Source of the DNA: Nitrospira sp.
GTDB taxonomy: Bacteria > Nitrospirota > Nitrospiria > Nitrospirales > Nitrospiraceae
DNA: 64,000 nucleotides
Reading direction: 5' to 3'
Assembly: GCA_018242665.1 (NCBI GenBank)
Contig: JAFEBL010000012.1
Location: forward strand, 62,001 to 126,000
A model generated the notes under the pieces. It ran no database searches and had not been told where the DNA came from. It worked only from the letters and a program-made list of their open reading frames with translations. Each line of letters begins with the position of its first letter. The first letter of the stretch is position 1. Below are positions 39,562 to 44,973 of the stretch, in pieces. A program made the position numbers and the translations under genes.

Positions 39562-40905
39562 CTAGTTATTCCACAAGCGCTGATACCACTTCTTCTCCGT
39601 GTCAGCCGGCAGGGATGCCAATTTCATTGAGTTGCGGATCTCGCTGATATTCCACCCCGTCAGCGAGGCGAGTGTGTGCGCTTCCCGCTCGTACCGCTCG
39701 CGCAATTGTTGGCGATACGTCGTGGCCGCCGCACAGTCCTCCGTTCCGGTCCACGGATGGCGCAGGATGTAGCGGGCCTGAAAGTTACCGCGACCGGACG
39801 TTTCCTGGAACATCAGGTCTTCGGGAAAGTGCGCGGCGTCGTAGCGGACGTGCAGCCTGGTCAGAAAGACGTGCTGCGCCACCGGCAGGCCTTTGCCTAT
39901 CCGACCATTGCTTTCCTGCCAAAACACACCGAGGCTGCGCAACTCTTCAGCCGACAGCGGGTCGGCGGCGCAGGGATCACACCAGTTCATGTCCCACGCA
40001 TACTCCATGAAGACGCCGCGTTCGCTTTCCCGCTTCACCTGCTGGCTGAAGAGGTCTCGGTAGAAGTCGCCGAACTTGTCCTTCACGAACAGCGGAACCT
40101 CCTGGGCGTCGGGCAGCCGCACCGTCCGATAGTTGGTGGTTTCGACGCGACCTTGCTTTGTGAGGAAGTAGATGAACAGTTCCTGCGCACCGTCGGCGTT
40201 GACCGTGCCGAGCCGGATCGGCAGCATGAACTTGGGCGATTCGAACGCGATCTGCAGCGGCCGGAGATGTGTGAGGCCAAGCTTGGCTTGCTCGCCCAGG
40301 TTGACCTTCGCCACGAAGAATTTCATGCCCTGTTTGAGATAACTCTGCAGGACTGCCGACGCGCCCTGCGGAATGCGGTAGCCGTTTTCGGTCAGCCAGA
40401 TTTCCAGGCCGCTGCTTTCTTTGCCGGAGAGGATCAGGATGTCGTATTCACCGACCGTATACTGCGCCTCCACCGTGACGCCCAGGGCCTTGTCGCGTTC
40501 ACGCGGAGCGGCCGCCGGTGCCACGCTCTTCATGGCGTCCATGCTGCGGCGTTCCATCAGCTCATAGCGGAGGCAGGGATTCTGGTCGAAGTATTCCACC
40601 AGTCGAGGCGCCGAGTAATCGGCCAGATGTTTCAGCAGCGCTGGATCGCCGACGTGGATCTGTTCTTTCTCCAGGATGGTCGGAACCGGCACCACCAGGG
40701 CGAACTCCTTCACGTCGCCTTTGAAATCATTGGCCATCGTGATCACGGTCTTGTTGTCGTGCCGCGCGATGGCCACCTCGGAGGCCGTATTGAAGAGTTT
40801 TGTATCGGCCTTGCCGACGTAAAAGCCGCAGAAGGCTGAGGCGTCGCCACCCCAGGCGAGCAGACCCAGAGTGAGCAATAGTGACGGAACGATGGCACGT
40901 CGCAT
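39562..40905 (-). CDS. DUF2330 secreted protein (internal start)
   Basis: A 447-aa exported protein translated from ATG 40905, preceded by AAGGAGG with 5-nt spacing. It has a signal peptide (LLLTLGLLAWGGDASA), the DUF2330 opening FCGFYVGKADTKLFNTASEV, then FALVVPVPTILEKEQIHVGD, EYDILILSGKESSGLEIWL and a Cys-rich DMNWCDPCAADPLS. A second TM anchor is not evident, so it is periplasmic or extracellular. DUF2330 proteins are of unknown function. The same reading frame continues upstream as the RnfD-like part. Confidence 0.8.
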   Translation of the reverse strand: MRRAIVPSLLLTLGLLAWGGDASAFCGFYVGKADTKLFNTASEVAIARHDNKTVITMANDFKGDVKEFALVVPVPTILEKEQIHVGDPALLKHLADYSAPRLVEYFDQNPCLRYELMERRSMDAMKSVAPAAAPRERDKALGVTVEAQYTVGEYDILILSGKESSGLEIWLTENGYRIPQGASAVLQSYLKQGMKFFVAKVNLGEQAKLGLTHLRPLQIAFESPKFMLPIRLGTVNADGAQELFIYFLTKQGRVETTNYRTVRLPDAQEVPLFVKDKFGDFYRDLFSQQVKRESERGVFMEYAWDMNWCDPCAADPLSAEELRSLGVFWQESNGRIGKGLPVAQHVFLTRLHVRYDAAHFPEDLMFQETSGRGNFQARYILRHPWTGTEDCAAATTYRQQLRERYEREAHTLASLTGWNISEIRNSMKLASLPADTEKKWYQRLWNN

Positions 40906-41805
40906 AGGAACCTCCTTGGTTGATGACCGAACAGGGACGAGATTGCGGACTGGTTTTGTAGCCGAGTGAGGAGAACCACCGGTTGAAGCGCGTGCCCAGT
41001 GGTAGCGTGAGCCGGGGAGCAGGTAATCGATCACTGGGACCAACGGCGCGCAGGCGATGAGTCCCCAGAGTGGCCCGTTCGGCTTGAACAGTCCGAATTG
41101 CACATAGAGCGCAGTCAAGGCCACGAGCAGCGCATACACGATACGCCCGATGCGTGAATCCGGCGTGGTCTTCGGGTCCGAGATCATGAAGAAGGCAAAG
41201 ATGAGCAATGTGCCACTTTCGATCTGATGGAGTGGAATGGTGACTGGATCGCCGAGTCGAAACGCCCGTGCGAACAGGAGCCCGATGTAACAGGCGAGGA
41301 ACGCCAGCGTGACATCGGCGCGTGCGGCGCGAGTGACCACCAGACTCCCGAGGCAGGCGATGAAAAAGGCGACCCAGGCGGCTTGCCCCCATTGCCCCGG
41401 CGAGATCCAGCCGAGCCCGCCGGCGAGAAGTAGGGCCAAGGCGAGATTGGTCGGATTGAAGAGGTGTTTGTCATGCCAACGAAGGACAAACTTACTCCCG
41501 ATGGCGATGAGGGCCGCCAATGCGGCGACCGTGAGATCATCGGTGCGCAGCAGGAGGCACAGTGACAGTGATGAGATCAGGGCGCTCTTGGGATCGAAGG
41601 CCGGAAGGTTGACGAGGACGGTCCCGACGTATTGGGCGAGTAATGCGGTTCCGATCGTCACCGCGATTTGCCAGATCGACAGATTAAAGTCAAGCCAGCA
41701 CAGCCCATAGACAAGGAGGGTACCCAGGCTTGCGATTTGGTAGGAGCGGGGATCCTGCCGAGATGCTGCCAGATCCGGTTCAAGCCTGGCGTGGTGATGT
41801 TCCAT
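39562..41805 (-). CDS. continuous frame: RnfD-like membrane part plus DUF2330 part
   Basis: One 747-codon frame with two unlike halves. Residues 1-275 are an NqrB/RnfD-like domain with about nine TM helices (SYQIASLGTLLVYGLCWLDF, HDKHLFNPTNLALALLLAGG, IFAFFMISDPKTTPDSRIGR); SDPKTTP is the family block. After a polar linker of about 25 residues, residue 301 starts a new Met, signal peptide and DUF2330 domain. GGAGGAATT precedes the ATG at 41805. Because the inner Met has its own SD, I regard this as probably two genes lying in one frame with no stop between them, though a real fusion product is possible. RnfD-like proteins bind flavin and move electrons or ions. Confidence 0.75.
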   Translation of the reverse strand: MEHHHARLEPDLAASRQDPRSYQIASLGTLLVYGLCWLDFNLSIWQIAVTIGTALLAQYVGTVLVNLPAFDPKSALISSLSLCLLLRTDDLTVAALAALIAIGSKFVLRWHDKHLFNPTNLALALLLAGGLGWISPGQWGQAAWVAFFIACLGSLVVTRAARADVTLAFLACYIGLLFARAFRLGDPVTIPLHQIESGTLLIFAFFMISDPKTTPDSRIGRIVYALLVALTALYVQFGLFKPNGPLWGLIACAPLVPVIDYLLPGSRYHWARASTGGSPHSATKPVRNLVPVRSSTKEVPMRRAIVPSLLLTLGLLAWGGDASAFCGFYVGKADTKLFNTASEVAIARHDNKTVITMANDFKGDVKEFALVVPVPTILEKEQIHVGDPALLKHLADYSAPRLVEYFDQNPCLRYELMERRSMDAMKSVAPAAAPRERDKALGVTVEAQYTVGEYDILILSGKESSGLEIWLTENGYRIPQGASAVLQSYLKQGMKFFVAKVNLGEQAKLGLTHLRPLQIAFESPKFMLPIRLGTVNADGAQELFIYFLTKQGRVETTNYRTVRLPDAQEVPLFVKDKFGDFYRDLFSQQVKRESERGVFMEYAWDMNWCDPCAADPLSAEELRSLGVFWQESNGRIGKGLPVAQHVFLTRLHVRYDAAHFPEDLMFQETSGRGNFQARYILRHPWTGTEDCAAATTYRQQLRERYEREAHTLASLTGWNISEIRNSMKLASLPADTEKKWYQRLWNN

Positions 41806-41865
41806 AATTCCTCCTGTACGAAGGGTATGGAATGAATCCGGGAATCCTTTCAGCGAGGGGCGGGA

Positions 41866-41964
41866 AGCGAGGCGGTGAGCCTATGGCTCCTTGCTCGCGG
41901 AACGCGCGCCTTCAGAAAGTCCTCGTTCGACGCGCGCACTGGAGCATAGGCCTACCGCCTCGCT
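41866..41964. repeat. large imperfect inverted repeat
   Basis: Arms 41866-41890 and 41941-41964 pair almost fully (AGCGAGGCGGT/ACCGCCTCGCT at the ends), with an inner CGCGCG stem (41903-41908/41931-41936). It fills most of the 269-bp gap between the divergent RnfD-like and lipoprotein genes. Candidate REP/MITE-like element or structured RNA. Confidence 0.6.
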
Positions 41965-43184: not shown

Positions 43185-44405
43185 CTATCGGCTCACGGGG
43201 ATGTCGACCGCGAGTTGTGCAGCGGGAGTCGCCTCGGGATTCACCACATAGGTCGCAGATTCCTCAACACCTGCGACTTCGCCAGACGTGACCGTTTCGA
43301 TCACGAGATTGCCGGAGAATCGGTCCAGCATGCCGACCTCTTGCATCGTGAGCGGGCCAAAGGGTTTGGGGGACAACCGGAGGACGAGATCGAGAAGGCC
43401 GCTCTCGGCCGAGGGTGGCATTGGAATCTCAATCCGTGTTCTGGCTGTCGCCTTCAGCGAAATTTTGCCGGTTTCCTGCGGAGGCCACCAGAGTCTCGTT
43501 CCGGCGGACCCGAGGTTTTGTAGGAGTTGGAGGTACCCATCCACCGTGGTCTCCACTACCAAGCGCATCGGTTCTTTGCTTCTGGCGGCAATGGCGGCGC
43601 TGACCTCCTGGTTTTGTCCGTTCACTCCACGGATCGCAAAGCTATATCGCAAGCCCAGAAGTTTGGTCGAGGCGTCTGCGTAATACAGCGCCCGGGCGCC
43701 TTTCGCCGGCACTGGGGCCCCAGCTCCGGACAGGGCAGATGGGGCAGGCTTCAGCATCGGCGCTGCAGCCGGTGTCGGAGGTCCCGGGGTTTCTGCAGAG
43801 AGCGAGCGGTCTTGCGAGACGCGGGCATGCTGGTCTGGTTGGCTTGATTCTGCTATGGCAGCTCGCTGGCTTGCATCGGCATGTGGTTGCGAGGCGGCTG
43901 TGTCGCGACTGGCTTTTTGTGTGGTGCTTCGGATGCGATTGGTGCTGTCCTTTTTTTCGAGCGCCACCGGCTCCGAGGCCGGTGGCGCGGGCGGGGAAGC
44001 CTGGGACGGTGAAGGCTTTGGGGGTGCGGGGGCACCAGGTTCTTCAGTGGAGACTGAGCGCGCTTGTCGATCGAGCCCCTCTTGGTAGATCCTCGTTCCA
44101 AACGTCACGGCGAACAGCGCAGCCGCGAGGCCGCCGGCCCAGGCAAGCCCGGCGGGTGTTCTGAACCAAGCCCACCAGGAAGCAGAGGGTTCAGCGGTCT
44201 GCGTGCGCGATTGCTGCAAGACATCCAGCAACCGGCGCCGCACCTCAGGCTCAGCAAGCAATTCTTTTAAGCTCTGCTCATCGGCCAGGGCATTGAACAG
44301 GCGCTGGTCCTGCAACGCTGCCGCATAGAGACGTTGTTGTTCGTCGGCCGTCAGTGTTCCAGCCGCGAAACCGCCCAATAATTGTTCCAGTTCGTGTTCA
44401 GGCAT
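43185..44405 (-). CDS. anti-sigma factor with DUF4384-like C-terminus
   Basis: A 406-aa membrane protein. The N-terminal 65 residues (LEQLLGGFAAGTLTADEQQR, LYAAALQDQRLFNALADE) look like an anti-sigma domain without the zinc HxxxCxxC motif. One TM helix follows (GLAWAGGLAAALFAVTFG, about 88-105), then a roughly 140-residue Pro/Ala/Ser-rich linker, and a periplasmic domain with RLVVETTVDGYLQLLQNLG and GLLDLVLRLSPKPFG, resembling DUF4384. It should hold the ECF sigma encoded 70 bp upstream inactive until an envelope signal arrives. The start at 44405 has no good SD. Confidence 0.85.
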   Translation of the reverse strand: MPEHELEQLLGGFAAGTLTADEQQRLYAAALQDQRLFNALADEQSLKELLAEPEVRRRLLDVLQQSRTQTAEPSASWWAWFRTPAGLAWAGGLAAALFAVTFGTRIYQEGLDRQARSVSTEEPGAPAPPKPSPSQASPPAPPASEPVALEKKDSTNRIRSTTQKASRDTAASQPHADASQRAAIAESSQPDQHARVSQDRSLSAETPGPPTPAAAPMLKPAPSALSGAGAPVPAKGARALYYADASTKLLGLRYSFAIRGVNGQNQEVSAAIAARSKEPMRLVVETTVDGYLQLLQNLGSAGTRLWWPPQETGKISLKATARTRIEIPMPPSAESGLLDLVLRLSPKPFGPLTMQEVGMLDRFSGNLVIETVTSGEVAGVEESATYVVNPEATPAAQLAVDIPVSR

Positions 44406-44411
44406 ACGGTT

Positions 44412-44452
44412 CGTGCGCGAATCGTGAAACGTACGACGTGAAAGGTACAACG
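44412..44452 (-). repeat. degenerate 7-bp repeat tract between sigma and anti-sigma genes
   Basis: On the minus strand CGTTGTA, CCTTTCA, CGTCGTA, CGTTTCA, CGATTCG follow with a 7-bp period. It separates the sigma stop from the anti-sigma start. Confidence 0.45.
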
Positions 44453-44475
44453 AATTGCTCAATACTCATGCCGGT

Positions 44476-44973
44476 TCATTCCCACGTTCCTCCCATCACG
44501 TTCAATAGCTGTTTCCGGCAGCGCGAGTCCCAGGTATAGATCGTATTGATCGAGGTCTGGCCCATGATGCGCTGAATCTCTGGAAACGTGTGTCCCTCCA
44601 GCTTCCACCTGAACAGCTCCCGGCAGCGATCCCCGAGTTGTGCCACGGCGGTCAACAGGCGCGCGACGCGCTGCTGTTGATCCAATTGCATGACCGGATC
44701 ATCTCCGGGGTTGGTCAGCGGCAGATCCTCGATCGCGTCTTGATGATACTCGCCCCGTCGCACGGATTTGCGGTGAGCATCCAACATTCGATACCGGAGT
44801 ATCTGAAACGCCAGGGGGACCAGTTCGGTCAGCTCTGTGACGCGCGCATATTTTTCATGCAGCAGCACTAGCACGTCTTGTGTGAGGTCCTCGGCCTGGT
44901 CCCGTGAAACCCGTGATGTCGCGAAGGCTAAAATCCTTTCGCGCAGGCTAGTCAAGATGAGGTCCCGGTGCAT
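44476..44973 (-). CDS. ECF RNA polymerase sigma factor
   Basis: A 165-aa sigma-70-family (ECF) factor. Region 2: AFATSRVSRDQAEDLTQDVL and AFQILRYRMLDAHRKSVRR; region 4: LTAVAQLGDRCRELFRWKLE, GHTFPEIQRIMGQTSINTIY, TWDSRCRKQLLNVM. It would redirect RNA polymerase to a stress regulon and is probably controlled by the anti-sigma factor gene downstream. The 41-codon amidohydrolase-like frame ends 7 nt before its ATG, so a ribosome finishing there could re-initiate here. Confidence 0.92.
   Translation of the reverse strand: MHRDLILTSLRERILAFATSRVSRDQAEDLTQDVLVLLHEKYARVTELTELVPLAFQILRYRMLDAHRKSVRRGEYHQDAIEDLPLTNPGDDPVMQLDQQQRVARLLTAVAQLGDRCRELFRWKLEGHTFPEIQRIMGQTSINTIYTWDSRCRKQLLNVMGGTWE

Follow-up and report, generated by a model that had tools for sequence, protein, structure and literature searches.

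An RnfD/NqrB-like membrane protein and a DUF2330 protein in one open frame of Nitrospira: fused gene or linked pair?

Is an open reading frame that runs through two proteins necessarily a single gene? In a 64,000-nucleotide stretch of Nitrospira sp. DNA (hereafter the window), one stop-free frame of 747 codons on the minus strand (a strand that the original prediction left unstated) encodes an RnfD/NqrB-like membrane domain and then a DUF2330 protein with start signals of its own. An original prediction, made from the sequence alone, offered two readings: either the first gene had lost its stop codon, so that a fusion and a free DUF2330 product would both be made, or the ribosomes make a deliberately coupled pair.

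The open frame and its two domains

We found that both halves of the frame score above the curated Pfam cut-offs (NQR2_RnfD_RnfE, PF03116, residues 136–263, 45.6 bits against 27.7; DUF2330, PF10092, residues 322–666, 276.6 bits against 24.7), which confirms the predicted run of an RnfD-like and a DUF2330 gene in one stop-free frame. The frame is the sole match in its own genome. The membrane domain is followed by a loose linker, the Shine-Dalgarno (SD) sequence AAGGAGG, five bases, an ATG and a signal peptide (MRRAIVPSLLLTLGLLAWGGDASA, read off the translated frame, with F after the cut) that leads into DUF2330 (Table 1); the SD, start codon and signal peptide that had been predicted for the second half are all present in the sequence.

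Table 1. Features of the open frame, by position in the window
Feature	Positions	Strand	Basis
Whole open frame	39562..41805	-	747 codons + TAG
Shine-Dalgarno AGGAGG of the RnfD-like start	41810..41815	-	Read from the sequence
RnfD/NqrB-like membrane domain, residues 1–270	40996..41805	-	Pfam PF03116; about ten helices in the model; Foldseek matches to RnfD 9eri_D, 8rbq_D, 8ahx_D
Linker, residues 271–295, nearly unconstrained but stop-free	40921..40995	-	pN/pS; stop counts and simulations; pLDDT <50
Internal Shine-Dalgarno AAGGAGG, whose bases are translated within K-E-V	40911..40917	-	Sequence; alignment of fused rows
Internal ATG of DUF2330, residue 301	40903..40905	-	ATG in 27/27 fused rows; weak local mRNA structure
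Signal peptide, residues 301–324, ending ASA before F	40834..40905	-	Sequence; cleavage-site tallies
Mature DUF2330 protein, residues 325–747	39565..40833	-	Pfam PF10092; model pLDDT 79.1

Just upstream of the pair, at 41866–41964, lies an imperfect inverted repeat with 34-nt arms that are 76% complementary. Apart from itself and its own reverse complement, this stretch is partly matched at six other places in the genome and is therefore likely to be a dispersed repeat element. At 43185–44973 on the minus strand, a gene with weak sigma-70 similarity, scoring under both Pfam cut-offs, is followed by a 425-aa gene with no Pfam match at E 0.01; relatives of these two genes stand near the pair in 6 of 22 loci with limited flanks.

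The AlphaFold2 model of the frame is poor overall (mean pLDDT 54.5), with a better membrane part and an unstructured junction. DUF2330 has a WCDPC motif (C-D-P-C in 58 of 58 rows, W in 57 of 58). In VIA-align, the mature DUF2330 model matched best to baculovirus P35 (Z 10.8, rmsd 4.0–4.8 over 216–222 residues, 9% identity), with the next unrelated rows at Z 7.8; Foldseek gave a best E of 1.0e-3 to P35, with TM-scores of only 0.27/0.37 and an rmsd of 14.4, and no sequence match between the two proteins was found. Baculovirus P35 is a caspase inhibitor. The name DUF2330 occurs in no paper of the literature searched, and a role of the pair in envelope stress or redox would be a guess.

Could the membrane domain be a subunit of an Rnf or Na+-NQR complex? 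Its fold and its PF03116 score are common to NqrB and RnfD of these complexes, and Foldseek aligned it with NqrB as well as with RnfD chains from the Rnf complexes of three organisms. On the other hand, it differs from them in having neither a PF02508 partner nor the covalent flavin motif [ST]GA[ST]. PF02508 had no match in the window's genome (G000, 99.93% complete); the same search was positive in 4 of 14 control genomes. The motif is absent from the window's core and occurs in 3 of the 150 cores aligned, some genomes being represented more than once. The RnfD model TIGR01946 scored 38.2 bits, below the NCBIfam cut-off of 207.05. With one PF03116 match, no PF02508 and a single ApbE match that lies on another contig, the window's genome therefore gives no support to a place for the pair in an Rnf or NQR complex, and this candidate role was rejected. 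The literature searched yielded nothing on RnfD-like proteins in Nitrospira.

The junction in relatives

Is the open frame peculiar to this genome? Of the 175 genomes of the family Nitrospiraceae, 82 match, and 27 of the 82 carry the two parts fused in one open frame. Within the genus (29 genomes), a single frame spans both parts in 18, the window's own included; four have two adjacent genes, three are cut by contig ends, two hold remnants and two have no match. The fused records include Candidatus Nitrospira defluvii (FP929003.1), Nitrospira moscoviensis NSP M-1 (NZ_CP011801.1) and Nitrospira sp. UBC2 (CP092081.1). Because the frame recurs in 27 family genomes, it is neither chance nor an assembly error, and a sequencing error at the window's junction is ruled out. 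For the window, we give practically no credence to an artefact of this one genome, since the identical open frame stands in 18 of the 29 genus genomes, four of them single-contig. Such an artefact is easier to imagine at other loci: the fused loci L034 and L037 belong to draft genomes, and single-base steps separate their junctions from those of the closest split relatives. A few fusions confined to one draft assembly could be errors. Neither of the objections raised with the original prediction, a sequencing error at the junction or a stop codon there in all relatives, holds against 27 genomes with a shared, stop-free frame. Two other loci of the genus (L027 in G017, L028 in G012) keep only short, interrupted DUF2330 remnants; loss of the pair is therefore possible.

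The 82 matching family genomes gave 68 readable pairs, 27 fused and 41 unfused; the other 14 were excluded by eye because contig ends, remnants or pieces on two contigs made the junction unreadable, and G015 (L081) was not used. We observed that in 38 of the 41 unfused pairs the stop of the first gene overlaps the DUF2330 start by 4 or 1 bases (ATGA, with one GTGA and two TGATG among the 35 scored by script), the starts being located partly by SD search. Three of the 38 were assigned by eye: the ATGA of L042 and L068 marks a start well ahead of the signal peptide, and that of L076 follows a poor SD. In the remaining three, the stop lies 34 bases before the start (L080) or there are frame breaks (L067, L072). 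The overlap is thus the usual unfused state, as a deliberately coupled pair would have it, although the window's own junction has no stop.

Some of these loci deserve a separate remark. In L042, L068 and L074 (unfused, genus g2), DUF2330 starts farther upstream, with an N-terminal extension before the signal peptide and the ATGA overlap kept. In L067 and L072, the membrane-protein gene is broken in frame and the DUF2330 start region is intact, a result of decay or assembly error; the L072 match, in G085, has stops listed inside it, yet there is an open frame of 477 codons.

How do fused and unfused junctions differ? In the unfused relatives, the first frame reads across the linker and the SD itself and often ends in QRRFS and a stop, whereas in the fused genomes the same junction DNA is mostly read in another phase (TKEV.M). 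In one close pair, L034 (fused) and L056 (TGATG), the difference is one extra A before the SD. Because the upstream frame reaches the DUF2330 start in fused and unfused genomes alike, the stop codon itself was not lost; by this comparison, the fusion is the same arrangement in another phase. Removal of the stop codon by substitution is not borne out, as the frame differs between fused and unfused relatives, and neither is the lost stop codon of the original prediction. Inspection of the junction in split relatives, with frameshifting in mind, revealed no clear slippery heptamer.

Judged from the trees, the fusion was gained or lost repeatedly. On the family tree of the 68 pairs, the fused and unfused states require 10 changes, at least 5 of which are forced by branches whose SH-aLRT is 95 or higher. 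A clade of 16 genomes keeps the fused frame. On a tree of 74 rows that reaches across phyla and combines 43 loci outside the family (L161 and L104 being one record) with 31 of the 68, they require 15 changes, at least 11 of them forced. Both trees come from quick searches with SH-aLRT only and flagged long branches, and 26 of 65 and 23 of 71 inner branches, respectively, are weak; because the root is the midpoint, gains and losses are not distinguishable and some of the changes may be losses.

The pair is widespread, conserved and present in several phyla. The best 80 of 131 relatives were kept, and 82 of 83 loci (all but L169) were scored, including repeats of family genomes; the 43 that lie outside the family comprise 9 fused pairs, 8 with ATGA, GTGA or TGATG, 13 long out-of-frame overlaps and 13 with a gap or unresolved, in 3 of which no start was found. 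An SD-like match was required in choosing the start in these loci, so the presence of an SD there is not independent evidence. With 13 of 43 loci in long out-of-frame overlap and another 13 with a gap or no start, tight coupling is therefore not universal outside the family, and a strict rule of overlap or fusion only, which nearly holds within the family, fails there. Three other families of the class illustrate the range: L102 is fused, L103 has a 55-base gap and L104 a 149-base out-of-frame overlap. In all three, the pair is preceded by a zf-HC2 anti-sigma-like gene, itself preceded by a sigma-70-type gene, the latter scanned by Pfam in L102 and L103.

The linker, the internal start and the fate of the read-through chain

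Could the junction simply drift, the upstream tail ending at the next chance stop, with phase 0 having neither function nor cost and no selection on coupling? The occurrence of all outcomes among the 43 loci outside the family speaks for this idea. Within the family, however, 62 of 63 loci have the first gene's frame free of stops as far as the DUF2330 start, compared with 44 of 63 for each other frame (63 of the 68 loci, leaving out L042, L067, L068, L072 and L076). Neutral simulations over 63 tips gave one interrupted tip or fewer in 0 to 23 of 2000 runs across six settings of root and scale; they modelled substitutions only, with no indels, and of the four test pairs, three show the divergence expected at the scale of 1.5. 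Stops are thus avoided in the linker family-wide. Within the 16-genome clade alone, stop avoidance is no more than suggestive (P 0.0085–0.066 at scale 1.5 and 0.026–0.13 at scale 1.0). This rarely reproduced openness, together with termination exactly at the overlap in nearly all unfused family pairs, makes pure drift an improbable account.

On the other hand, the amino acids of the linker matter little. Over 8 fused pairs, its pN/pS was 1.01 (interval 0.76–1.41), whereas the membrane core had 0.21 and DUF2330 0.13. The linker pS, 0.196, is lower than the core value of 0.297, and we therefore limit the claim to a nearly unconstrained linker; its pN over the core pS, about 0.67, indicates some constraint. 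Constraint on both proteins is similar in fused and split genomes (0.21 and 0.17 for the membrane core, 0.13 and 0.11 for DUF2330). The largest difference lies in the tail (0.99 fused, 0.52 split), and that in the signal peptide is small (0.37 fused, 0.51 split).

Are the internal start signals of the fused genes kept as DNA? An SD (AAGGAGG, AAGGAGA or GGAGG) precedes the ATG in all 27 fused genomes. In codon columns of their alignment, which are independent of the SD search used to locate the starts, every one of the 27 has ATG as its start, and the two SD codons read AAG in 25 of them and GAG in 26. Both codons are invariant in the 16-genome clade, where 2 of 14 invariant-Lys control columns used a single codon and none was all AAG, and 2 of 24 invariant-Glu columns used a single codon, one of them all GAG. 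These results indicate that the internal SD of the fused genes is conserved at the DNA level, and dual output, the other half of the lost-stop reading in the original prediction, is therefore likely; the comparison thus bears out parts of both original readings. Furthermore, the mRNA at the internal ATG is weakly folded (mean percentile 0.75 in fused and 0.72 in split genomes, above the median in 25 of 27 and 36 of 38, respectively), and the cleavage triplets of the 27 fused signal peptides are ASA (22), VSA (3), AAA (1) and AWA (1). Where a single genome is fused, the SD could be a recent relic, less easily so in the 16-genome clade.

A true fusion would tether DUF2330 permanently to the membrane through an uncut signal helix, with the internal SD as a relic. 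The unbroken frame in 27 genomes and its persistence in a clade of 16 are what it would predict; nevertheless, the conservation of the SD codons as DNA, the kept cleavage triplets, the nearly free linker and the repeated switching between fused and unfused states under similar constraint on both proteins all make it unlikely.

Where would the chain stand when it reaches the signal peptide? The membrane-domain model shows about ten helices, counting 244–252 and 255–262 as one, and not the nine originally predicted; by our reading of their positions, K and R lie mostly in loops on the same side as both termini, in keeping with a domain that would end in the cytoplasm. In the portions of the sources available, an older table counts nine helices for NqrB and eight for RnfD (PMC4014512), in an NqrB structure helix VIII is short and central and a helix X is present (PMC10643135), and NQR/RNF-like proteins are described that continue beyond the NqrB/RnfD part into a cytosolic domain (PMC8238504). 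The published counts of nine and eight therefore leave the topology open, as nine would put the C-terminus outside. The cleavage site follows this domain of about ten modelled helices, an arrangement that the original prediction called unusual for a signal peptide; it would be ordinary if the chain, as expected from ten helices, is back in the cytoplasm at that point, since the signal peptide could then enter the membrane in the normal direction.

Taken together, we consider it rather probable that the window holds two linked genes in phase 0, that DUF2330 has an internal start and that signal peptidase cuts the read-through chain; most likely, these are two genes with linked translation despite their fused look. 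The first of them encodes an RnfD/NqrB-like membrane protein and the second a DUF2330 protein that would reside in the periplasm. In most unfused family relatives, the first frame stops inside the second start (ATGA), whereas in the window the loosely constrained tail of the first gene lies in the phase of the second, so that, we propose, ribosomes run on. DUF2330 would still be initiated from the SD and ATG that belong to it. A chain made by read-through would insert as ten helices and end in the cytoplasm; the next hydrophobic stretch would serve as an ordinary signal peptide, and signal peptidase would cut after ASA, so that either route would probably end in the same two proteins. We infer the internal initiation, the membrane topology, the cleavage and any physiological role of the pair.

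Comparison with known systems and significance

The cytochrome b/c1 gene fbcH of Bradyrhizobium encodes a polyprotein that is cut at an internal signal peptide. The window's frame is like it in placing an in-frame signal peptide and a periplasmic protein after a polytopic membrane protein, but differs in keeping an internal SD and ATG and in having flipped between fused and separate states many times. Among the matches listed, the literature held no direct account of fbcH, nothing direct on internal signal peptides and no Nitrospira proteome naming N. moscoviensis, and the literature searched had nothing direct on fusion and overlap combined.

How does the pair compare with known overlapping genes? 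The unfused relatives mostly share the ATGA/TGATG junction of termination-reinitiation pairs, as these are described in the available parts of PMC6728339 and PMC10666635. The window differs: its upstream frame is in phase 0, there is therefore no termination at its junction, and neither ATGA nor TGATG with a stop is found there. In the available text of PMC10666635, ATGA overlaps are favoured phase-2 outcomes and long overlaps belong to phase 1, the latter also being present in relatives of the pair outside the family; that part of its Discussion treats phases 1 and 2 only, whereas the window's pair is in phase 0.

Two further systems come close. The frame-transition pairs of PMC3711429, in the excerpt available, are adjacent genes in one genome and a single fused gene in another, as here, and some are classed as translational coupling; the present pair differs from those described there in its kept internal start and signal peptide and in its repeated switching within one family. 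Cas11b (PMC11899642, available in part) is likewise translated from a second start within one frame, but its short product is part of the long one, whereas the two halves of the present frame are made from separate genes in relatives.

Could phase 0 be an overlooked third state of overlapping gene pairs? We put this forward tentatively: small frame changes may turn an ATGA pair into a single frame that still works as two genes, through a conserved internal start and cutting by signal peptidase, and with this pair it may have happened many times across phyla. Surveys of overlaps would miss such pairs because annotation would record them as fusions. If this is true, some apparent fusion genes are linked pairs, and inference of function from fusions, or the assumption of a single product, would mislead. 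The family and its relatives also offer a natural experiment, in which the same two proteins occur with an ATGA, a long out-of-frame overlap, a gap or an in-frame fusion, so that the cost and yield of each junction could be measured. Finally, the finding draws attention to a conserved pair of proteins found in several phyla.
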